Shown here piece after piece: positions 1,379-11,187 of a stretch of 11,633 nucleotides of DNA. The DNA is from Clostridiales bacterium. GTDB lineage: Bacteria > Bacillota_A > Clostridia > Oscillospirales > Oscillospiraceae. Below the pieces are notes generated by a model that made no database searches, was not told the DNA's origin, and worked only from the letters and a program-made list of their open reading frames with translations. The position numbers and the translations under genes were made by a program. The stretch lies in the NCBI GenBank assembly GCA_019417795.1, contig DXUR01000061.1:1-11633 (forward strand), read 5' to 3'. How positions within the stretch are numbered: position 1 is the first letter of the stretch; every line of letters begins with the position of its first letter.

Positions 1379-2677
1379 CTAAATGTTTACATCTACACGC
1401 TGCTTGGCGGCCCATGCGATCACAAAGGTGATGACCTGCGCGACCGGCGTGGCAAGCCAGACACCGGTCAGCTTCAGCATTGGCGGCAGGATCAGAAGCA
1501 TCAGCAGCGTACAGACCGGCTCAGCATATACGAGAAGGTAGGAAAGTCCATTCTTTTCCGTTGCGTAGAAGTAAGATGTTGTAATACGGACAAACGCCAG
1601 AAACAGCAGCGTTGCGAGAAAAAGTGGGAGATACCGGATGACCCCGGCGTTTGCCTCTGTCGAAGCGCCAAACAGCGTGCCGACTTTTGCTCTTGCAAGA
1701 TAGACACCGATCGTGCAGACTGCCGTGATCGCAGCAGCGGTCAGATAGGCCAGCTTTCGGACAGCCTGAACGGAAGATCGGTCATCCTTTCCGTAATACT
1801 GGCTGATCAGCGGCTGACTGCCGTCGCCTACTCCTTGCAGCAGCAGATAGAGGATCGCGGTAATATAGCCGATACAGCCGTAAACCGCAACTGCCTGCTC
1901 ATCCCCGTACAGAAGCAGAAAGCGATTTATGAGGAGCATCGTGATGATGGAAGAAAAGGTCAAACCAAAGGGCGAGATCGCGACGATCAGGACATTTTTC
2001 CAAAGCCTGCATAGCTCCCGTAGTTCCGGCAGGCAAAATCCGCTCTTTTTTACAAGGAAGAAAATGACTGCCACGATCATAGTCACGGCCTGTCCGATAA
2101 TGGTCGCCCATGCAGCGCCGGCCATTCCCCAGCTCAGGGCCCACACGAAAACATAGTCCAAAGCAATATTCGTTGCAAAGCCGAAAGCCATGGCTATCAT
2201 GGCAACCGTTGCCCCGCCCATATTGCGGATAAATGGGACGAAGCCGGTTGCCAAAAGCTGAAAAACAGCGCCCAGCGCGATTACCTGGGCATACATGACA
2301 CAGAGCGTGAGCATATTGCCTCTTGCACCCAGCAGATGAAGAATCGGCTGGGCAAAAGCAAATAGGATCGCCGTCAATAAACCGGCAGTCAGCAGCATCA
2401 GCAGCGTTGTTCCGGAAAAGCACTCCTGACGCTTTTGGGTTTCCCCCTGCGCGTTCAGGATCGTAAAGCGAATCGCTCCCGACAGGCCAAGGCCCGTACC
2501 GACCGCTCCGATCAGCGCGGAAATCGGATAGCCCAATGTGATGGCGGTCAATCCTGTATCACCGAGGCTTTGCCCGATAAAGAACCCATCGACAATGGTG
2601 TAAACCCCCGACAATGCGAATGCGAGGATGGACGGAATGACATAGGAAAAGAATTTCTTGTTCAGTGCGGTGTTCAT
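1379..2677 (-). CDS. MATE-family multidrug/cation efflux transporter
   Basis: A 432-residue integral membrane protein of the MATE family, which exports drugs or other cationic compounds in exchange for Na+ or H+. The N-terminus has the family pattern: FFSYVIPSILAFALSGVYTI, then VDGFFIGQSLGDTGLTAITL and GYPI. Hydrophobic segments repeat along the whole length, consistent with 12 membrane helices in two related halves, and the second half starts near the LWKNVLIVAISPFGLTFSSI segment. The length is normal (420 to 460). The substrate cannot be read from sequence; it is closest in style to the MepA-like branch of Firmicutes. The ATG at 2677 has GGAG about ten bases upstream and AGGT closer in. It forms a single-gene unit with its own terminator (1292-1330), separated from recN by about 180 bases containing a lone CRISPR-type repeat. 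Confidence 0.9.
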   Translation of the reverse strand: MNTALNKKFFSYVIPSILAFALSGVYTIVDGFFIGQSLGDTGLTAITLGYPISALIGAVGTGLGLSGAIRFTILNAQGETQKRQECFSGTTLLMLLTAGLLTAILFAFAQPILHLLGARGNMLTLCVMYAQVIALGAVFQLLATGFVPFIRNMGGATVAMIAMAFGFATNIALDYVFVWALSWGMAGAAWATIIGQAVTMIVAVIFFLVKKSGFCLPELRELCRLWKNVLIVAISPFGLTFSSIITMLLINRFLLLYGDEQAVAVYGCIGYITAILYLLLQGVGDGSQPLISQYYGKDDRSSVQAVRKLAYLTAAAITAVCTIGVYLARAKVGTLFGASTEANAGVIRYLPLFLATLLFLAFVRITTSYFYATEKNGLSYLLVYAEPVCTLLMLLILPPMLKLTGVWLATPVAQVITFVIAWAAKQRVDVNI

Positions 2678-2695
2678 TTACCTGTGTCTCCATTT

Positions 2696-2711
2696 CTTGT
2701 TCAAAAACAAG
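2696..2711. repeat. Short inverted repeat in the MATE leader
   Basis: CTTGTT, four bases, AACAAG: a perfect 6+6 dyad ending about 19 bases upstream of the MATE start codon on the minus strand. It could be an operator or a small leader hairpin upstream of the ribosome site. No regulator gene is adjacent. Confidence 0.3.
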
Positions 2712-2764
2712 ATTGAATAGTGTGATGGCGTCCGTCATCTGCTTCATACGCTCTGCGCCCATAC

Positions 2765-2796
2765 ATTTCAACCCGCATACCCCACGAGGGGGCGAC
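2765..2796 (-). repeat. Solitary type I-C-like CRISPR repeat
   Basis: Read on the minus strand this 32-base element starts GTCGCCCCC, has a TCGT loop, then GGGG, and ends TATGCGGGTTGAAAT. Type I-C CRISPR repeats are 32 bases long, begin GTCGC, contain a short GC-rich hairpin and end in a variant of GTGGATTGAAAY, so length, both ends and the hairpin (CCCC/GGGG around TCGT) all fit. There is only one copy: no second repeat occurs at the expected 33-36 base spacing on either side. The bases that would be the leader (2797 to about 2856) lie between recN and the repeat. No cas gene is in the window. Confidence 0.65.
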
Positions 2797-2856
2797 AGCA
2801 AAAGTACACAAATTCCTTGTGAAGCTTTGCAACAAGGAGGCAATACAAAGACAGGC

Positions 2857-4545
2857 TTACACAAAATGCTGCTTTCGATAGGCGTCCGCCTGATCCAGCA
2901 GTTCGCTGGCACTTTCCAGCAGCGCGGGCGTTACCTGACTGCCGCCGGTAATCCGAGCCAACTCCGCTTTGCGGGCCTCCCGGTCCAATTGGATGACTCT
3001 TGTGAACGTCCGTCCCCCGCTCTCCCCTTTTTCCACGGAAAAATGGGTGTCTGCCATTGCGGCCAGCTGTGGCAGATGGGTCACGCAGAGTACCTGCTTG
3101 TGCCGGGCCACCTGAGTCAGCTTTTCCGCCACCTTTTGGGCCGCGCGGCCGGAAACGCCGGTATCCACCTCGTCGAATACCAGCGTGGCAATGGACTCCT
3201 GCTCCGCCAGCACGTTTTTCAGGGCCAGCATGATCCGGGCTAACTCGCCGCCGGAGGCGATCTTAGCGATGGGCCGCAGGTCCTCTCCCGCGTTGGCGGA
3301 CATCAGGAACCGGATCACGTCGCAGCCGTCGGCGGCAGGCTCTTTTTCCGTGAATTCGATAGCAAAGCGAACTTTGTTCATGTCCAGATCCCGTAGTTCC
3401 GACTGAATTCGCTGCTCCAGCGCTTGGGCAGCCGCTTTCCGTTTTTGGGTCAGTTCCGCGCCGGCGGCACGGACAACAGCCTCTGCCTTTTTCAATTTGC
3501 CGTTCAGTAGGATCAGGGTATCGTCCGCCGTCTCCATGGCGTCCAGTTCACTGCGACACTGTTCCAGATAGGCGATCATGTCCTCCACAGTGGCGCCATA
3601 TTTCTTTTTCAGGCGGTAAAGCTGGTCGGTCCGGGCCTCCGCGGCATCCAACTCCGCGGAAGAAAAGGCAAATTCTGCCCGTTTATCCCGAATCGTCTCG
3701 GCAAGGTCATATACTTCACAGCGAATGGATTCCAACCGTTTGTATAGCTCACCCAATTCATCGCTGAGGGTACGGATGCCCCGAAGGGCCTCCTCTGCCT
3801 CCCGGATGGCTGAGACCGCGCCTGCACCGTTGTCATCGCCGCTGAGACAGTAATCGGCCCCGGACAGGGCGGCAATATACTTCTCACCGTTGCGCAGCAG
3901 CTCCCGCCGGGCGTTCAGTTCCTCCTCCTCGCCGGAGATCAGCTCCGCCCGCTCCAACTCGTCGATCTGGAACCGGAGGGAATCCATGCGCCGGGCTTTC
4001 TCCGCCTCATTCATCTGCAAGGATCGAATTTGATCCCGGATAGCCGCCATGGCGTTGTAGGCGCTGCGGTAGGCAGCCAAGGGGGCCTCCATCCGCCCGA
4101 AGCGGTCCAGATACGCGCCATGCTGTTCCTCATCCAAAAGCTGCTGGCCGTCGTGCTGGCCATGGATGTTCAAAAGCTCTCCGCCGATCTGGCGCAGTTG
4201 GGTAACAGTCAGAGGGCGGCCATTGGCGCGGCAGACGTTCTTGCCGTCCCCGCCGATCTCCCGCTGCAACAGCAGATTACCATCCTCGTCAGGTGTGACG
4301 CCGTTGTCAGCCAGTCCCGGCAGTGTGGACGGGACCTGAGAAAAAACGGCGCTGACAAAGGCCTTGTCCGCGCCGGTCCGGATCAGCTCCCGGGAGGCCC
4401 GTCCGCCCAAAACGGCGCTCATAGCGTCGATCACAATGGATTTGCCGGCGCCGGTCTCGCCGGTCAGGGCGTTGAAGCCGGGGCGGAAGGATATATCCGC
4501 AGACTCGATCACCGCGATATTTTCAATATGAAGCAATTCCAGCAT
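2857..4545 (-). CDS. recN: DNA repair ATPase RecN
   Basis: RecN is an SMC-like cytoplasmic ATPase that gathers to DNA double-strand breaks and helps RecA-dependent recombination. The 562-residue length is normal. Visible parts in order: N-terminal ATPase half with MLELLHIENIAVIESADISF and Walker A GETGAGKS (residues 29-36); a long charged helical middle, about 160 to 370, which forms the coiled coil; then the C-terminal ATPase half with the ABC signature SGGELAR (431-437), Walker B TLVFDEVD (454-461) and the switch segment THLPQ (489-493). The ATG at 4545 has AAGGGAG about 9 bases upstream and follows the argR stop by 39 bases. RecN at the end of the xse-dxs-tlyA-argR block is the standard Firmicutes arrangement. 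No clear terminator follows the stop. Confidence 0.97.
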   Translation of the reverse strand: MLELLHIENIAVIESADISFRPGFNALTGETGAGKSIVIDAMSAVLGGRASRELIRTGADKAFVSAVFSQVPSTLPGLADNGVTPDEDGNLLLQREIGGDGKNVCRANGRPLTVTQLRQIGGELLNIHGQHDGQQLLDEEQHGAYLDRFGRMEAPLAAYRSAYNAMAAIRDQIRSLQMNEAEKARRMDSLRFQIDELERAELISGEEEELNARRELLRNGEKYIAALSGADYCLSGDDNGAGAVSAIREAEEALRGIRTLSDELGELYKRLESIRCEVYDLAETIRDKRAEFAFSSAELDAAEARTDQLYRLKKKYGATVEDMIAYLEQCRSELDAMETADDTLILLNGKLKKAEAVVRAAGAELTQKRKAAAQALEQRIQSELRDLDMNKVRFAIEFTEKEPAADGCDVIRFLMSANAGEDLRPIAKIASGGELARIMLALKNVLAEQESIATLVFDEVDTGVSGRAAQKVAEKLTQVARHKQVLCVTHLPQLAAMADTHFSVEKGESGGRTFTRVIQLDREARKAELARITGGSQVTPALLESASELLDQADAYRKQHFV

Positions 4546-4584
4546 GTTCCGCGTCTCCCTTCGGAATGGGTTTCTGCCGGTGGT

Positions 4585-5034
4585 TTACAGCATTTCCCGG
4601 ATCTCCTGGCAGAAGGTCTCCGCACAGGCGTTGTCCTTCATGACCACGAAGACCGTGTTCTCCCCTGCCAGCGTGCCCACCATGCCGTTGACATCCATGT
4701 GATCCAGGGCCTCGCAGGCGCCGCCGGCCAGACCGGCCAGCGTCTTGAATACCACAATGTTCTGGGCGCAGTCCACGCTGGTGATGCTCTCATGGAAGAT
4801 GGTGCGCAGCTTGTCCGCAATGTTCAGACGGGCACGGCTGCTGGAAACCGCGTATTTGTAGGTGCCGTGGCCCGTAGGCTCCTTCACCAGATGAAGCTGC
4901 TTGATGTCCCGGGAGATGGTGGCCTGGGTGCTGGCCACGCCCCGCTGCCGCAGCTGCTCCAGGAGCTGCTCCTGGGTCTCGATGTGTTCCTTTGCGATGA
5001 TGTCAAGGATCATGGATTGGCGATTGTTTTTCAT
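4585..5034 (-). CDS. argR: Arginine repressor ArgR (AhrC-type)
   Basis: ArgR is a hexameric DNA-binding protein that uses arginine as co-repressor to switch arginine biosynthesis and catabolism genes. The 149 residues are the family's usual length. The N-terminal winged helix has the recognition helix STQATISRDIKQLHL (35-49); the C-terminal oligomerisation and arginine-binding domain carries ALDHMDVNGMVGTLAGENTV (109-128), in which GTLAGENT matches the family's GTxAGDDT, with glutamate in place of the first aspartate. The start codon overlaps the nadK stop by four bases (ATGA at 5034-5031), and GGGAGG lies about 8 bases upstream inside nadK, implying translational coupling. I see no convincing ARG box in the neighbouring DNA. 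Confidence 0.96.
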   Translation of the reverse strand: MKNNRQSMILDIIAKEHIETQEQLLEQLRQRGVASTQATISRDIKQLHLVKEPTGHGTYKYAVSSSRARLNIADKLRTIFHESITSVDCAQNIVVFKTLAGLAGGACEALDHMDVNGMVGTLAGENTVFVVMKDNACAETFCQEIREML

Positions 5035-5909
5035 GACTGAAAACCTCCCGGCAGCATTTTTTGCGCGAATACTTCGCAGAAGCTCTTTTCAGACAGATGC
5101 GCCAGCCGGGTCAGATACCGGCTTCGGCGAATCTGGACAATATCGTTGGAATGCAGAGGGAACGCCCGACTCTCATCCACAAACAGGAATATCGGCTTGC
5201 GGCCATTGCGCTCAAAGGAGACCGTCAGAGTGTGGTCCGGCGAGAGAACGTAGGATGAAAAGCGCATATTGTGGGTGCAGATGGGCGTCAGAGTCAGGAT
5301 CTGGGCCACCGGCTCCACCACCGGGCCGCCGGCGGAGAGTGAATAAGCTGTGGAGCCTGTGGGGGTGGCAATGATGGCGCCGTCTCCCGCGATGTCTGCA
5401 AGGTGCTTTCCGTCGGAAAATACCTTCAGATGGATCACATGGGAGATGGGACCCTCTCGGATCACTGCATCATTCAGGCCCATATTCGTATAGATCTGCT
5501 TGCCGTCCCGCAGAACGGAAACGTCCAGCATCATTCGTTCTTCAATGGGAAAATCCCAGTTTTTCAGGCCGCGCAAAGCGTTCAGAGAGCCGACCTCCAG
5601 CTCTGCCAGAAAGCCCAGTCCCCCCATGTTGATACCCAGCATGGGGATCTTGTGCAGCGCCGCCAGCTTGGCCAGATGCAGGATCGTTCCGTCGCCGCCA
5701 AGGGTGATGACCAGATCCGCACCCTTCAATTCCGGCAGCAGCGGCTTGGAGGGCAGATCTCCGAAGGCGTCGGTTTTCGGGTCCCGGAAGGGCGAACAGA
5801 CCACCGTCTGAAAGCCCATGTCCCGCAAAATGGCAATGGCGGACTTTGTGGCCTTCATTCCGGTGTCCCGGTCCGGATTCGGAGAGAGAATGATTTTTTT
5901 CGGTTCCAT
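5031..5909 (-). CDS. nadK: NAD kinase
   Basis: NadK phosphorylates NAD to NADP, the only route to NADP in most bacteria. The 292-residue protein shows the family's motifs in order: GGDGT (71-75), the nucleotide-binding and catalytic motif; NMGGLGFLAE (94-103); the ND pair in GLNDAVI (146-147), where many relatives have NE; and the long signature GDGAIIATPTGSTAYSLSAG (175-194) that binds NAD. The ATG at 5909 shares one base with the stop of tlyA (TAATG), and the stop overlaps argR by four bases, so it is translated within the same message. Placement between tlyA and argR is common in Clostridia. Confidence 0.96.
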   Translation of the reverse strand: MEPKKIILSPNPDRDTGMKATKSAIAILRDMGFQTVVCSPFRDPKTDAFGDLPSKPLLPELKGADLVITLGGDGTILHLAKLAALHKIPMLGINMGGLGFLAELEVGSLNALRGLKNWDFPIEERMMLDVSVLRDGKQIYTNMGLNDAVIREGPISHVIHLKVFSDGKHLADIAGDGAIIATPTGSTAYSLSAGGPVVEPVAQILTLTPICTHNMRFSSYVLSPDHTLTVSFERNGRKPIFLFVDESRAFPLHSNDIVQIRRSRYLTRLAHLSEKSFCEVFAQKMLPGGFQS

Positions 5910-6730
5910 TATACCGTCCCCTCTCCGTGCTCCTTCAGGGTTTGATGGGATTCCTCCACCAGAGCGTCCAAGTCAAAGGCTGCGGTGGTTTCCGCACCCT
6001 TTTGTAGGAAGCCCAGATACTCGATGTTCCCCTCCGGCCCACGGATGGGGGAATAGGTCAGTCCCAGAACACCGAAGCCCGCTTCCCTTGCGTGCTCCAG
6101 ATAGTGCTCCAGCACCTCCTTGTGCACTGCCGGGTCCCGGACAACGCCCTTCTTGCCTACCTTCTCCCGGCCGGCCTCAAACTGGGGCTTTACCAGACTG
6201 GCCACATAGCCGCCGTCCTTCAAAACGTTGGCCACCGCCGGCAGGATCAGCTTCAGGGAAATAAAGCTCACATCGATGGAGGCAAAATCCAGCTCGTCCG
6301 GGATCTGCTCATGGGTCAGGTACCGGGCATTGGTGCGCTCCATGCACACCACACGGGGGTCCTCACGGAGCTTCCAGGCAAGCTGGCCGTAGCCTACATC
6401 CACCGAGTAGACCTTGCTGGCTCCATTTTGCAGCATACAGTCCGTAAAGCCGCCAGTGGAGGCACCGATGTCTCCGCAGATGCAGCCATTCAGCTCAATG
6501 GGAAATTCCGCCATGGCTTTTTCCAGCTTCAGACCGCCCCGGCTCACATACTTCAAAGTATTCCCACGAATTTCGATCTTCGCGTCATTGGGGACCGCCG
6601 TTCCGGGCTTGTCCACCCGCTGACCGTTGACGAACACCAGACCACTCATAATGGTGGCCTGTGCCTTCTGGCGGCTTTCCTGAAGCCCCTGCTCCGCCAG
6701 CAGCACATCCAGCCTCGTTTTCTTGCTCAC
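5909..6730 (-). CDS. tlyA: TlyA-family rRNA 2'-O-methyltransferase (YqxC)
   Basis: TlyA methylates the 2'-hydroxyl of cytidines in 16S (and in some species 23S) rRNA; earlier members were misnamed haemolysins. The 273 residues have an S4 RNA-binding domain (about 1-60: TRLDVLLAEQGLQESRQKAQ, then VFVNGQRVDKPG) and an FtsJ-type Rossmann methyltransferase. The SAM motif is GDIGASTGGFTD (86-97), and the expected K-D-K-E catalytic set is visible as K68 or K71 in RGGLKLEKA, D153 in SIDVSF, K181 in LVKPQFEAG and E237 in GNIEYLG. The start is GTG at 6730, backed by a perfect AAAGGAGG nine bases upstream. The dxs reading frame continues 146 bases into this gene. Confidence 0.93.
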   Translation of the reverse strand: MSKKTRLDVLLAEQGLQESRQKAQATIMSGLVFVNGQRVDKPGTAVPNDAKIEIRGNTLKYVSRGGLKLEKAMAEFPIELNGCICGDIGASTGGFTDCMLQNGASKVYSVDVGYGQLAWKLREDPRVVCMERTNARYLTHEQIPDELDFASIDVSFISLKLILPAVANVLKDGGYVASLVKPQFEAGREKVGKKGVVRDPAVHKEVLEHYLEHAREAGFGVLGLTYSPIRGPEGNIEYLGFLQKGAETTAAFDLDALVEESHQTLKEHGEGTV

Positions 6731-8579
6731 AGGACATGTCCTCCTTTACCGTTTTTACCACACCGTCAGCGTCAAGGCCGAACCGGTGCCGCAGTTGATC
6801 CACCGTGCCCTCCGGGGCAAAGTGATCCTTCAGATTTTGCAAAATCGTGTGAGAACAGCACTGCCCGGTCTCTTCCATGGCCGCAGCCAGCTGCTGGCCC
6901 ACGCTGCCGTTTTCAAAACAGTCCTCCAAAATCAGGACGGTCTTGGCTCCCTCCGTCTCCCGGAGGATCGCCGCCGTGTCCAGAGGGGCGATGCGGTTGA
7001 GCTTCACCACGCGGGTGGAGATCCCGGATCGTTCCAGCTCCTCCGCGGCGGACAGGGCCTGCTCCACCAGCGTTCCGTAAGTGATCAGGACTGCCTGACA
7101 GCCGTCCCTCATGCGCACTACGGCCTGAGTGCTGGTGTCCGCGTTAAAAACGCCCTCTCCCCCTCTGGGATACCGGATCGCCACCGGGCCGTCGATCTCA
7201 AACAGCGCCTGATGAAGCATGGTCCGCAGTTCCGCAAAGCTGGCGGGGCACAGGACCGTGAACCCCGGAATACTGGTGAGATAGGAAACATCCAGACAGC
7301 CGTGGTGGGTCTCGCCGTCAGCGCCCACCAGACCGGCCCGGTCCACGCCAAGGACAACATGAAGCTTTTGCAGAGCCACATCGTGGACCAGCATATCGTA
7401 GCTCCGCTGCAAAAAGGTGGAGTACACGGCGAAAACAGGGATCATCCCCTGCTTGGCCATACCGGCGGCCATGGAAACGCCGTGACCCTCCGCAATGCCC
7501 ACATCGAAGAACCGCTCCGGGTGGGCCTGCTCGAATACCGTCAGGCCGGTGCCTTCCTCCATGGCGGCGGTGATGGCACAGATGCGGCTGTCCTCCCCGG
7601 CGCAATCGCTGAGGGTCTTGCCGAATACGGAGGAAAAGGTCTCCCCGGGTGCTTTTTTCAAAAGTCCGGTTTCCGGATCAAAGGGCGCGATCCCATGGAA
7701 CTTGCCGGGGTCCCGCTCCGCGAAGGCGTATCCCTTACCCTTCTGGGTATGGACATGGACCACCACCGGGCCGGTGAGCTCCTTGGCCCACGTCAGCATA
7801 TCGCACAGGCGGGGCAGGTCATGGCCGTCGATGGGTCCCAGATAGGTGAAGCCCATATCCTCAAAGAGAGTGCTTCCCGGCCACAGTGTCTTTTTCAGGC
7901 TGGTTTTCAGCCGATGGTTAAAGCGATAGATGGCGGACTGGGAGGGAGACTCTCCAAAGAGGCCCCGATACCATTTCTTAAAGTGGTAGTAGGCAGGTTT
8001 GCTGCGCAGCTTGGAAAGATGATTCGGCAAAGCCCCCACATTGGGGTCGATGGACATGCCGTTGTCGTTCAGAAGAACGATCATATGCTCACCGGAGGCC
8101 CCAACGTTGTTCAGACCCTCGTAGGCCAGTCCGCCGGTGAGGGCGCCGTCTCCGATCAGCGCCATGACCTGATAATCCTGGTGCTGCAAGGTCCTTGCCC
8201 TCGCCATACCCAACGCCACGGAAACGGAGTTGGAGGCGTGGCCGGCGATGAAGGCATCATGGACGCTTTCGTGGGGCTTAGGAAACCCGGAAAGGCCGTC
8301 CAGCTGCCGCAGTGTGGAAAACAGTGTCTGACGGCCGGTGAGGGCCTTGTGGACGTAGGCCTGATGCCCCACGTCGAACACAAGGCGGTCATGGGCGGTG
8401 TCAAAGACCCGGTGGATCGCCACCGTCAGCTCCACAACGCCCAGATTGGAGGAAAAGTGTCCGCCTGTTTTCGACACGTTTTCCAGCAGAAACTGCCGCA
8501 ACTCCTTACAAAGCTGCGGCAGTTGATTTTGATCGAGTGCCCTGATATCCTCAGGGGAATGAATGGAATCCAGAATCAC
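6585..8579 (-). CDS. dxs: 1-deoxy-D-xylulose-5-phosphate synthase, with a C-terminal read-through tail
   Basis: DXS condenses pyruvate with glyceraldehyde 3-phosphate using thiamine diphosphate, the first step of the MEP isoprenoid pathway; it also feeds thiamine and pyridoxal synthesis. Seen: GHFSSNLGVVELTVAIH (40-56), the TPP site GDGALTGG (143-150) with N171-D-N173, the catalytic glutamate in DVGIAEGHG (E364), and RAGLVGADGETHHG (414-427). Start GTG at 8579 has AGGAGG five bases upstream. The normal family end is near residue 616 (GLDADGVVKTVKEDMS), but here the frame runs on for about 48 residues of low-complexity Gly/Ala-rich sequence inside tlyA. The neighbouring frame has stops (TAA) right where dxs would be expected to end, so a one-base difference would give a normal protein. 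It supplies the IPP/DMAPP that IspA, encoded upstream, elongates. Confidence 0.95.
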   Translation of the reverse strand: MILDSIHSPEDIRALDQNQLPQLCKELRQFLLENVSKTGGHFSSNLGVVELTVAIHRVFDTAHDRLVFDVGHQAYVHKALTGRQTLFSTLRQLDGLSGFPKPHESVHDAFIAGHASNSVSVALGMARARTLQHQDYQVMALIGDGALTGGLAYEGLNNVGASGEHMIVLLNDNGMSIDPNVGALPNHLSKLRSKPAYYHFKKWYRGLFGESPSQSAIYRFNHRLKTSLKKTLWPGSTLFEDMGFTYLGPIDGHDLPRLCDMLTWAKELTGPVVVHVHTQKGKGYAFAERDPGKFHGIAPFDPETGLLKKAPGETFSSVFGKTLSDCAGEDSRICAITAAMEEGTGLTVFEQAHPERFFDVGIAEGHGVSMAAGMAKQGMIPVFAVYSTFLQRSYDMLVHDVALQKLHVVLGVDRAGLVGADGETHHGCLDVSYLTSIPGFTVLCPASFAELRTMLHQALFEIDGPVAIRYPRGGEGVFNADTSTQAVVRMRDGCQAVLITYGTLVEQALSAAEELERSGISTRVVKLNRIAPLDTAAILRETEGAKTVLILEDCFENGSVGQQLAAAMEETGQCCSHTILQNLKDHFAPEGTVDQLRHRFGLDADGVVKTVKEDMSCEQENEAGCAAGGAGASGKPPEGTGHHYEWSGVRQRSAGGQARNGGPQ

Positions 8580-8614
8580 AATGACCTCCTGCGGCTGTAT
8601 GGATCAGCAAAGAC

Positions 8615-9172
8615 TCAGCCGCGATGAAACAAATGCAGAAACCGACCTGCCAGATGGACCACCCGCTTGCTCTGGTTCATGGCGAAGGGCTTTCCCAGCG
8701 CTTTTCCGCCGATGGTAGCGCCGGAGATCAGCGCCGTGACGCCCACGGAGATCAGCACGCTTTCCAGGTTCAGTCCCTTTTGCAGCCGGGCCACGATCAC
8801 CGCGCCGGTAGCGCCGGAGACGATGCCGCAGATATCGCCCACCACGTCATTGCAGACGCTGGACACCCGGTCCGCGTTCCGCAGGAGCTTCAGCGCCTCT
8901 TTCGCGCCCTTTTCCTTGTGGGCGGCCATGGAGTGAAAGGGGCGGGGGTCCGCCGCAGTCACCGCCACGCCGATGATGTCAAACAGGATGCCAAGTCCGA
9001 TGAACAGCGCCAGGATCAGCAGCGCCAGCAGCAGACCGGCGTTCTCCAAAATGGCCTCGGAGCTCAGGCTCAGCAGCCCGGACAGTGCCACGGCCATGAC
9101 AAAGGCCGTCAGCGCCCAGCGGTAGTGGTTATGTTCCTTCTTGCCGGTTTTCGGATTGGAAGGTTTTTTCAA
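8615..9172 (-). CDS. oapA: OLE RNA-associated membrane protein OapA
   Basis: A 185-residue membrane protein encoded immediately after the candidate OLE RNA and before dxs, the known site of OapA. OapA binds OLE RNA and brings it to the membrane in Bacillus halodurans, where the complex is linked to tolerance of cold, short alcohols and Mg2+ stress. The sequence shows a basic N-terminus (1-18), four likely helices (about 19-39, 46-71, 110-128, 138-156), a charged loop (76-102) and a basic C-terminus. The DxxxD motif I recall as a conserved OapA feature is present as D109-VVG-D113 in VCNDVVGDICG. The segment AADPRPF...KGAKEALKLLRNADR also recalls the DUF21 part of CNNM/CorC Mg2+ transport proteins, the main alternative reading. 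The start is TTG at 9172, in a T-run, with GGAGG (9184-9180) seven bases upstream. Confidence 0.85.
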   Translation of the reverse strand: MKKPSNPKTGKKEHNHYRWALTAFVMAVALSGLLSLSSEAILENAGLLLALLILALFIGLGILFDIIGVAVTAADPRPFHSMAAHKEKGAKEALKLLRNADRVSSVCNDVVGDICGIVSGATGAVIVARLQKGLNLESVLISVGVTALISGATIGGKALGKPFAMNQSKRVVHLAGRFLHLFHRG

Positions 9173-9194
9173 AAAAACGCCTCCGTTATCATTC

Positions 9195-9853
9195 AGATAT
9201 GCTAAGTCAGCGGCAGCAAATCAGGTAAATCTTGCGGCTTAGGTGCGGGTTTGTTTTCCCCACGGAACACCTCTCGTTGCCGATGGAGGCGGTTCCCCTT
9301 TCAGTTCCGAGGCGCGCCGTCGCCGATCGCGCTACCCGATTGCCACTGAGTCCGCACTGCAATCCCTGATTCGCTTCCCATGAACAGCCTAGGTGTTTTC
9401 CACCACAGTCTGTCCGTTTCTTTAGCCTCTTTTGCAAAACTGGTTTCAGCGGGCGATCACGATCGCCGTCCCGGCCAGGACAGCGCCGTGTTGATCCCAC
9501 ATTCACCAGCTTCACGCAAGGCAGGCTACGGCTGCACACAGCGTTACGCACCCGAAGGCACGATGCACCGCATTGCAGGTTCATCATCTGCTTCGTACAT
9601 GGATCCGCTTACCACAATGGGAGTACGTCCACGCACAAGAACAGGTCTCCACGGAAACAGGGGCGGGGTATCCATGCCATTGGAAATCGCCCTGAGTCCG
9701 CAAGCGCGAAAAGCGCGCTTCCTCCCAGCATCCACCCAAGACTGGGCGTCTCAAGCAGACACCAGAAGTTTCACAGGTGTGCCCTTTGGAGGCTTTTTAG
9801 GTCCTCCCTCGGAAACGGCAGATCTGACTAGAATACTGCGCCGCCGCTTAGCT
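9195..9853 (-). ncRNA. ole: Candidate OLE RNA (ornate, large, extremophilic)
   Basis: About 650 bases between ispA and oapA hold no believable protein: the open frames on either strand are rich in Cys, Arg and Ser and resemble no family. OLE RNA is about 600 bases, lies between ispA and oapA in Firmicutes, and forms a ribonucleoprotein at the membrane with OapA, OapB and OapC. The fit here is position, orientation, length, a strong dedicated promoter (9888-9860) and dense stems: AAGCGCG/CGCGCTT (9702-9720), a GGCGAT/ATCGCC hairpin (9453-9468), GGAGG pairing with CCTCC around 9787-9808, and AGGTG pairing with CACCT around 9241-9272 enclosing a GGG/CCC inner stem. The 5' end is set by the promoter; the 3' end is approximate. 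Conserved OLE sequence was judged from memory, not by alignment. Confidence 0.82.
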
Positions 9854-9859
9854 CATATC

Positions 9860-9888
9860 AGTATAGCATGGCTTGCGAAAATATGCAA
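9860..9888 (-). promoter_or_regulatory. Strong extended -10 promoter of the OLE RNA
   Basis: On the minus strand: -35 TTGCAT (9888-9883), a 17-base spacer, TG one base before the -10, and -10 TATACT (9865-9860). The predicted start is near 9853. It lies about 180 bases past the end of ispA, so the RNA and oapA can be expressed independently of the xse-ispA message. Confidence 0.75.
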
Positions 9889-9973
9889 CAGCTTCCGTAT
9901 ATATACAGAGCGGCTGACGGTGTGCTTCGTGGACCCGACGAGTGATTTTTGGCGGCATCTTAACAGCTTTCCA

Positions 9974-10013
9974 GGCCCCGGCCCATCCTGCCGACTTCGT
10001 TGTGTACGGGGCC
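9974..10013. repeat. Inverted repeat in the ispA-OLE spacer
   Basis: GGCCCCG (9974-9980) and CGGGGCC (10007-10013) are a perfect 7+7 inverted repeat with a 26-base loop that can itself pair partly. It lies in the 150-base spacer between the post-ispA hairpin and the OLE promoter, where no gene is seen. It may be part of the ispA 3' end or an additional structured element. Confidence 0.35.
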
Positions 10014-10070: not shown

Positions 10071-10949
10071 TTATTTCATGCGCTCAGTGAGGCTTTCCGC
10101 CAATGCGGTCAAAAAGCCCTCCCGGTCCAAGTCGGACACGGCGGAGACCGCCTGTTCCGTCAGCTCATGGACCAGCTTGCCGCAATCGTCCAGTCCCAGC
10201 AGGTCCACATAGGTGACCTTGCCCTCGTCCTTGTCGGAGCCGATGGGCTTGCCGAATTCGTCGGCGTTTCCGATGACGTCCAGCATATCGTCCCGGATCT
10301 GGAAGGCCAGACCCAACTGATAGCCGTAGTCCTCCGCGGCCTTCCGGGCCGCCTCGCTGCCGCCGGCTGCGCCGACGCCCAGCATACAGGCTCCGGCGAT
10401 CATGGCACCGGTCTTCAGGTGGTGGACCTCCGTCAGTTCATCCTGGGCAGAGGGATGGTGCAGCGTGTCCAGCACCTGCCCCGCTACCATGCCGTCCGGG
10501 CCGGACGCGTTCGCCAGAATCAAAGCGCAATCCGCCCGCTGGGCGTCGGTCAGGCCGGGAGCCGTCAGGATCAGGCGGTAGGCCGCAGGCTGGAGAGCGT
10601 CTCCCGCCAGTACCGCCAAGGTCTCGCCATAGACCTTGTGGTTGGTGGGTTTACCCCGGCGGAGATCGTCATCATCCATGCAGGGCAGGTCATCATGGAT
10701 CAGAGAATACGTGTGGACCAGCTCCAGCGCGCAGCCCATCGGCACGGCCTTGTGCCAGTCCAGACCGCACAGCCGGGCAAACTCCAGCGTCATCACCGGA
10801 CGCAGCCGCTTGCCGCCGGAGAGAACGCTATATCGCATGGCCTCATAGAGATCCGCCCAATGGGGCTTCTCCGCAAACAGGCTGTTCAAATAGTCCTCGA
10901 TGGCCGCCAGATATTCCTGATACCGGGCGTCAAACGCAGTCTTTTCCAT
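10071..10949 (-). CDS. ispA: Polyprenyl (farnesyl/geranyl) diphosphate synthase
   Basis: IspA joins isopentenyl diphosphate units to allylic diphosphates, giving geranyl/farnesyl diphosphate for undecaprenol and quinone-type lipids. From the ATG at 10949 the product has 292 residues, usual for the family. It shows GGKRLRP (45-51), the first aspartate-rich motif HDDLPCMDDDDLRRGK (85-100; DDxxxxD with the two-residue insert typical of bacterial FPP synthases), the lysine-containing HHLKTGAM (176-183), and the second motif FQIRDDMLD (216-224). I prefer the ATG at 10949 to the upstream ATG at 10970 because CGGAGG lies just upstream of it and it starts one base after the xseB stop; the earlier start would overlap xseB. 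A hairpin follows the stop. Confidence 0.95.
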   Translation of the reverse strand: MEKTAFDARYQEYLAAIEDYLNSLFAEKPHWADLYEAMRYSVLSGGKRLRPVMTLEFARLCGLDWHKAVPMGCALELVHTYSLIHDDLPCMDDDDLRRGKPTNHKVYGETLAVLAGDALQPAAYRLILTAPGLTDAQRADCALILANASGPDGMVAGQVLDTLHHPSAQDELTEVHHLKTGAMIAGACMLGVGAAGGSEAARKAAEDYGYQLGLAFQIRDDMLDVIGNADEFGKPIGSDKDEGKVTYVDLLGLDDCGKLVHELTEQAVSAVSDLDREGFLTALAESLTERMK

Positions 10950-10950
10950 G

Positions 10951-11187
10951 TCAATCCTCCGTACTTTCAAAGGGCAGCTCCACCGGCGCGCCGTCGGGCC
11001 CCTTCATCAGCTTGACCACCTGCTGCTCCGCCTTGTCCAGCTCCGTGGAGCAGGCATTGACCAACTTGGTCCCCTCCTCAAATAACCGTAGGGAATCCGC
11101 CAAGGGGGCATCCCCTTTTTCCAGCGCTGCCACGATCTCTTCCAACCGGGACAGCTTTTCCTCAAAGCTCAGTTTTTTAGCCGCCAT
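10951..11187 (-). CDS. xseB: Exonuclease VII small subunit
   Basis: XseB is the small helical subunit that binds in several copies to XseA to form exonuclease VII, which degrades single-stranded DNA from both ends. The 78 residues are of normal length and carry the family pattern LSFEEKLSRLEEIVAALEKG, then PLADSLRLFEEGTKLVNACS and ELDKAEQQVVKL, two helices. The start lies inside the end of xseA (11-base overlap), and ispA starts one base beyond the stop, so the three genes are tightly coupled. Confidence 0.96.
   Translation of the reverse strand: MAAKKLSFEEKLSRLEEIVAALEKGDAPLADSLRLFEEGTKLVNACSTELDKAEQQVVKLMKGPDGAPVELPFESTED

Follow-up and report, generated by a model that had tools for sequence, protein, structure and literature searches.

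In the Oscillospiraceae, the arginine repressor ArgR probably controls the OLE RNA, judging from a recurring palindrome in the OLE promoter, from the sharing of its motif with argG and from its absence in the few loci that lack argR. Few structured bacterial RNAs whose biochemical role is unsettled are as large as OLE; it forms a membrane ribonucleoprotein (RNP) for stress adaptation, the mechanism of which is unsettled. What looks new here is the palindrome that recurs in the OLE promoter, and searches of the open-licence PMC literature turned up no ole promoter with a described ArgR site. The operator lying across the -35 box went unmentioned in an earlier note on this DNA.

The OLE RNA of the window

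The minus strand of the window, i.e. the whole stretch of 11,633 nucleotides that was analysed, encodes an OLE RNA. The earlier note had offered this RNA as a candidate, and running the covariance model returned a full-length match to RF01071 at positions 9860 to 9194 (424.2 bits, the gathering score being 50; E 5.8e-122; model positions 1-616 of 616), so that the feature spans 9194-9860 with a G+C content of 0.57 and its identity is, for practical purposes, certain. It is the sole Rfam match in the window to reach the gathering score. A 126-aa ORF lying within the RNA (9207-9587, minus) matched no Pfam family at E 0.001, and a coding alternative for the interval was dropped on that ground; a phage link was likewise dropped, as a megablast search of positions 8000-9900 against a phage collection gave no match.

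The two ends of the RNA fold together into a terminal stem, with the 5' strand at 9840-9852 and the 3' strand at 9201-9217 (both minus), strands that are unpaired in the Rfam model. In the 65 relatives' loci used for the count (seven of 72 were skipped), the ends pair by at least 9 in 62, yet they also do so in 55 of 65 when 3' ends are swapped among species, and the count is therefore weak evidence for the stem. An extra hairpin, inserted relative to the Rfam consensus, occupies J5/6 at 9702-9720 (minus) and is present in 67 of the 72 OLE RNAs of the Oscillospiraceae set. Measured between fixed sequence marks, the P5-P6 stretch comes to 17-129 bases (median 34) in the 72-locus set versus 14-15 in members of the wider phylum, the latter figure being drawn from the 13 measurable loci among 30. 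The proposed k-turn 1a draws on the J5/6 strand, and the J6/7 sequence GTGGAGA, seen at the sequence level in 71 of the 72 loci, belongs to k-turn 1b; the common occurrence of the J5/6 hairpin, combined with the retention of GTGGAGA, thus somewhat favours k-turn 1b as the form that holds generally. In P6 (about 9652-9691 in the window), the CCUCCU described for Halalkalibacterium halodurans as an anti-Shine-Dalgarno mimic for bS21 binding occurs in none of the 72 loci and in one of 13 measurable phylum members, and so this mimic may not be general. On the 11.5-kb contig of one relative (L074), OLE occurs twice in opposite orientation, at 2470-3133 (minus) and at 8410-9073 (plus); nhmmer gives both copies the same score, and they are probably an assembly palindrome.

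The gene cluster

Upstream of OLE, and like it on the minus strand, lie xseB, for the small subunit of exonuclease VII (10951-11187, PF02609), and the polyprenyl synthetase gene ispA (10071-10970, PF00348). Downstream, again on the minus strand, are oapA (8615-9172), the gene for the membrane protein partner, which was assigned by its position and by relatives' loci that have OLE; dxs (6585-8579, PF13292); a tlyA-type S4/FtsJ methyltransferase gene (5909-6730, PF01728 and PF01479); nadK, for NAD kinase (5031-5909, PF20143 and PF01513); argR, for the arginine repressor (4585-5034, PF01316 and PF02863); and a recN-like gene (2857-4545, PF02463). Pfam also places a MatE protein downstream in the window. 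The OapA-like protein has a sub-threshold Pfam match to CNNM, at 27.3 bits against a cut-off of 28.4, and the ArgR of the window matches a solved arginine repressor/activator structure, 1f9n, at E 3.4e-28. The order xse-ispA-OLE-oapA-dxs, which had been read from the letters of the window, is upheld.

From OLE through oapA, dxs, tlyA and nadK to argR, the elements share one strand and are separated by small gaps or overlaps. Among the 71 loci with enough sequence, argR follows within 9 kb in 66, and a recN-like gene follows in 69. Two irregularities were seen: the dxs frame of the window overlaps tlyA, which is read in a different frame, by about 145 bases (6585-6730), which may be either natural or an assembly frameshift, and, in one relative (L048), OLE at 4203-4856 and oapA at 10001 are about 5 kb apart, an exception to the tandem arrangement. 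In its full-length OLE, its upstream ispA, its downstream oapA and dxs, and the presence of argR in the cluster, the locus resembles the ole-oapA loci of H. halodurans and Clostridium acetobutylicum; it differs from them in its longer J5/6 with a hairpin and in having its own promoter with a candidate ArgR operator; the ole cluster of H. halodurans is reported to be transcribed as one polycistronic unit (PMC12265935).

Host lineage and distribution of OLE

Relatives were collected by a protein scan of genome contigs with OapA, and the best 80 of 503 confirmed relatives were retained. All 80 of these best oapA loci have OLE by nhmmer, and their titles name Oscillibacter, Dysosmobacter, Oscillospiraceae, Ruminococcaceae, Clostridia/Clostridiales or Eubacteriales, several being named after gut, rumen or faecal sources. 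In a tree of five proteins, built by a quick method, the window falls in an 18-row set that includes Oscillibacter and Dysosmobacter (SH-aLRT 97). Both the titles and the tree back the earlier view that the flanking genes are those of a gut-type member of the Oscillospiraceae. That such a host would broaden the range of OLE is no news, because OLE in gut Bacillota is already in print and is common: PMC11332333 gives 2,822 OLE hits in Bacillota and names the gut clades TANB77 and RF39 for variant OLE forms, and OLE was found here in 217 of 299 sampled genomes of the phylum.

Genes for the other known partners occur in the same group. An OapB-like gene is present in 27 of 39 relatives' genomes, the query matching the solved OapB structure (PDB 7k9b) at E 3.2e-7, and an OapC/YbxF-like gene, with rpsL nearby, is present in eight of nine. 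PF00467 was dropped as a marker of OapB, since its matches, two at most per genome, are not OapB; the second match in L111 is L24.

A palindrome in the OLE promoter

The promoter TTGCAT-N17-TG-N-TATACT that had been noted ahead of the RNA was located at 9888-9860 on the minus strand, and its elements are supported by both the sequence and the aligned relatives. The -35 box TTGCAT lies at 9883-9888 and the extended -10 box TG-C-TATACT at 9860-9868 (TG at 9868-9867, TATACT at 9865-9860), with a 17-base spacer, and transcription would begin near 9853, seven bases past the -10 box. OLE upstreams were aligned for the window and 71 other loci, nine of the 80 having been dropped as lacking a usable OLE upstream. 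The promoter is kept in these relatives, with an extended -10-like TGnTA[TAG][AT][ACG]T near the start of the RNA in 56 of 72.

Overlying this promoter is a palindrome, TATATACGGAAGCTGTTGCATATT (9880-9903, minus), a candidate ArgR site that is the window's best match to a motif derived from argG upstreams (see below). Its right half overlaps the -35 box, over which there is also an ARG-box-like sequence, GTTGCATATTTTCGCAAG (9872-9889, minus), the window's best match to an ARG-box matrix built from argG. A palindrome like TATATAC-GGAATATG-TTGTATATT recurs across the aligned Oscillospiraceae OLE upstreams. In the Oscillibacter-like group the right half of the palindrome is the -35 box, whereas in other clades the palindrome begins about 13 bases further upstream (-74 versus -61) and the -35 box is separate from it; because of this shift, the palindrome is more than a stretched -35 box.

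A motif shared with argG

A simple dyad, ATATAC-N10-GTATAT with one mismatch, was set aside as unspecific, its overall counts being like those of a reversed control; three additional matches to it sit upstream of argG, a gene located independently by Pfam. Unlike the bare dyad, the fuller forms of the palindrome are specific. From the argG matches of 39 genomes, 31 upstreams were scored with a motif that 32 distinct OLE sites had supplied; 13 of them outscored 99% of 585 background windows, and 14 beat all 100 shuffles. In the opposite direction, a motif was learned by EM from the distal argG upstreams, of which 29 remained after removal of near-duplicates, with zero OLE sequence in the training set and a width of 24 that was picked after the OLE site had been seen. 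Its consensus is TATATGCATAAATTTTCGTATATT; 19 of the 29 argG upstreams have a confident site, and the other 10 gave EM no confident distal site. When this argG-learned motif was scanned over 5-20 kb per locus (11.6 kb for the window), its top-scoring site fell in the OLE promoter for 62 of the 72 loci, one of which is the window.

It might be supposed that the AT-rich block is promoter architecture, an UP element plus a -35 box, and that its likeness to the motif is one of composition. The OLE upstreams are indeed AT-rich within GC-rich loci, and the OLE promoter came first in a mean of 18 of 72 loci (maximum 40) with 60 column-permuted motifs and in 38 of 72 with the reversed, non-complemented motif, results that make the AT-rich layout responsible for part of the ranking. 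They do not account for all of it: against the 62 of 72 obtained with the true motif, and a median lead of +10.6 over the best site elsewhere, 30 permuted motifs gave a mean lead of -4.7 and a maximum of -1.9. Also at odds with a purely architectural origin are the dyad symmetry of the site, its shift relative to the -35 box and its restriction within the phylum. In the scan of the loci with the argG-learned motif, 46 of the 72 Oscillospiraceae OLE promoters beat all 100 of their own shuffles and 26 did not; in the comparison with the phylum, 49 of the 72 beat all shuffles with the distal motif, versus none of 57 elsewhere in the phylum, the latter being those that could be anchored (13 could not) among 70 OLE upstreams taken from the higher-scoring hits listed for the 217 OLE genomes. 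Composition is thus a very unlikely explanation, and the operator, given the 0 of 57, looks specific to the family rather than general to OLE.

Across 12 whole genomes, a strict 20-base pattern matched 16 distinct sites in 10 genomes, with nine at OLE, four at argG and three elsewhere, and the reversed pattern matched three. Taking a common operator motif as the mark of an ArgR regulon, OLE has one in common with argG, the arginine gene that was scanned. As to the sites outside OLE and argG, one at L121 1501-1522 (G008:C7) repeats the OLE operator exactly and has 39 bases in common with the OLE upstream; it adjoins what, from the translations, was interpreted as the end of an aldehyde-dehydrogenase-like gene and a transposase-like ORF, and gives no clue. 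Another (G001:C11) adjoins a gene whose translation was interpreted as AbrB/SpoVT-like, and a further one is G008:C15.

ArgR as the likely binder

We infer that ArgR is the factor binding the palindrome, that its effect is repression and that transcription from OLE extends as far as argR. Two papers (PMC4865122 and PMC5291005) report that ArgR binds upstream of argG, and a match to TGNATAWWTATNCA at 14 of 14 positions occurs in 27 of the 31 argG promoter regions, a pattern that was written after they had been seen and that fits the ARG-box consensus forms published in PMC4865122. The argG ARG-box matrix by itself makes a weaker case across loci: its locus maximum falls in the OLE promoter for 36 of the 72, whereas 40 permuted matrices give a mean of 8.6 of 72, with one reaching 39; 12 of the 72 OLE promoters beat all shuffles with this matrix. 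Like targets of the known ArgR/ARG-box regulon (argG, argCJBD and others), OLE has a palindrome over its -35 box, a motif in common with argG and an argR gene encoded alongside. Unlike them, it is a structured noncoding RNA with a membrane partner rather than an arginine gene, and its palindrome does not consist of one classical ARG box.

The association between the operator and argR bears on the identity of the binder. By tblastn, six loci (L047, L066, L068, L069, L072 and L078) have no argR between nadK and recN, and the Arg_repressor_C domain was found in none of these six genomes and in 10 of 10 comparison genomes. Using a cut-off of 10 bits for a site to be called present, which was set after the scores had been seen, the operator is missing in five of five testable loci that lack argR versus six of 64 that have it (n=69, with three further loci having no readable argR position); Fisher's test gives p 4e-5 and a rank test p 3e-4, both ignoring kinship. 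On the tree the losses of argR number three, and for two of the three the close relatives L033 and L057 keep argR yet lack the site. Of the three independent pairs, a mean of 1.7 have site and argR changing together, 0 have them changing in opposite ways and 1.3 show no change in the site; with three independent losses, a sign test cannot reach significance and the evidence from argR loss is small. Counting against the ArgR reading, the site is present in some genomes without a full argG match (L029, L040, L058, L061 and L064), and OLE promoters elsewhere in the phylum lack it. For C. acetobutylicum, PMC3828012 could identify no ArgR motif at the promoter of the operon with argR; this, too, counts against the reading, though it is in keeping with the operator being a feature of the family.

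A transcription factor other than ArgR might bind the palindrome at both OLE and argG, and such a reading draws on the distal argG site, which is not a classical 18-bp ARG box and whose half-sites look, on our interpretation, everted. It is nevertheless unlikely, in view of the near-confinement of the strict motif to OLE and argG (13 of the 16 sites in the 12 genomes), the lack of the site in loci without argR and the -35 portion that, in the window, reads as an ARG box. ArgR is also reported to be linked to the RNA itself: it was found with OLE RNA in a pull-down from H. halodurans, and argR is often near ole (PMC10898510). The interaction of ArgR with OLE RNA in H. halodurans cells is described in PMC10898510 and PMC12054373, with the in vitro confirmation unpublished.

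A rival account is ordinary autoregulation of the argR operon, with OLE as a passenger in first position and no functional link between OLE and arginine. This is quite possible, for argR lies downstream on the OLE strand with short gaps, within 9 kb in nearly all loci as given above, and the operator is missing in loci lacking argR. Against it stands the placement of the site at OLE, several genes ahead of argR; in the 62 of 72 loci whose top-scoring site is the one at OLE, argR itself has no better one. The interaction of ArgR with OLE RNA, as related in PMC10898510, likewise speaks for something more than autoregulation.

A proposed arginine switch for OLE

Under the preferred reading, in which ArgR controls OLE, the RNA would head a unit OLE-oapA-dxs-tlyA-nadK-argR-recN in this Oscillibacter-like bacterium, and the extended -10 promoter would start it at its terminal stem. 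The -35 box lies inside an ARG-box-like sequence that is itself part of the larger palindrome; arginine-bound ArgR would occupy this site, whose position over the -35 box in this lineage should let the repressor keep RNA polymerase out. OLE and oapA, and probably argR too, would then be made when arginine is low. Since the genes follow on a common strand with small gaps or overlaps, the OLE promoter may feed argR in a negative loop. In the clades whose palindrome lies upstream of the -35 box, the sign of control could differ. By its description, ArgX of Lactococcus lactis (PMC6586332), an sRNA derived from the argR 3' UTR, is likewise a noncoding RNA genetically tied to argR. Whereas ArgX is a small RNA located after its argR, OLE measures about 650 bases and precedes argR by several genes.

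The DNA link and the RNA link between ArgR and OLE together lead to the idea of a closed loop, in which ArgR would control OLE-oapA, and also argR, according to arginine, and in which OLE RNA would bind ArgR and so may hold it at the membrane or titrate it there, making OLE an arginine-gated stress RNP. This loop is a tentative proposal that we consider somewhat unlikely as a whole. mTOR senses arginine, and, if the loop were true, OLE would be a bacterial parallel to that sensing. The bTOR idea is that of the OLE authors (PMC12265935). An ArgR-like operator fits the reports, in PMC10898510, of an ArgR-OLE RNA interaction and of the poor growth of OLE mutants on alternative carbon sources. For the Oscillospiraceae, the recurring ArgR-like operator gives OLE a named candidate signal, arginine, and a named candidate regulator, and it would place this RNA under the control of arginine supply.
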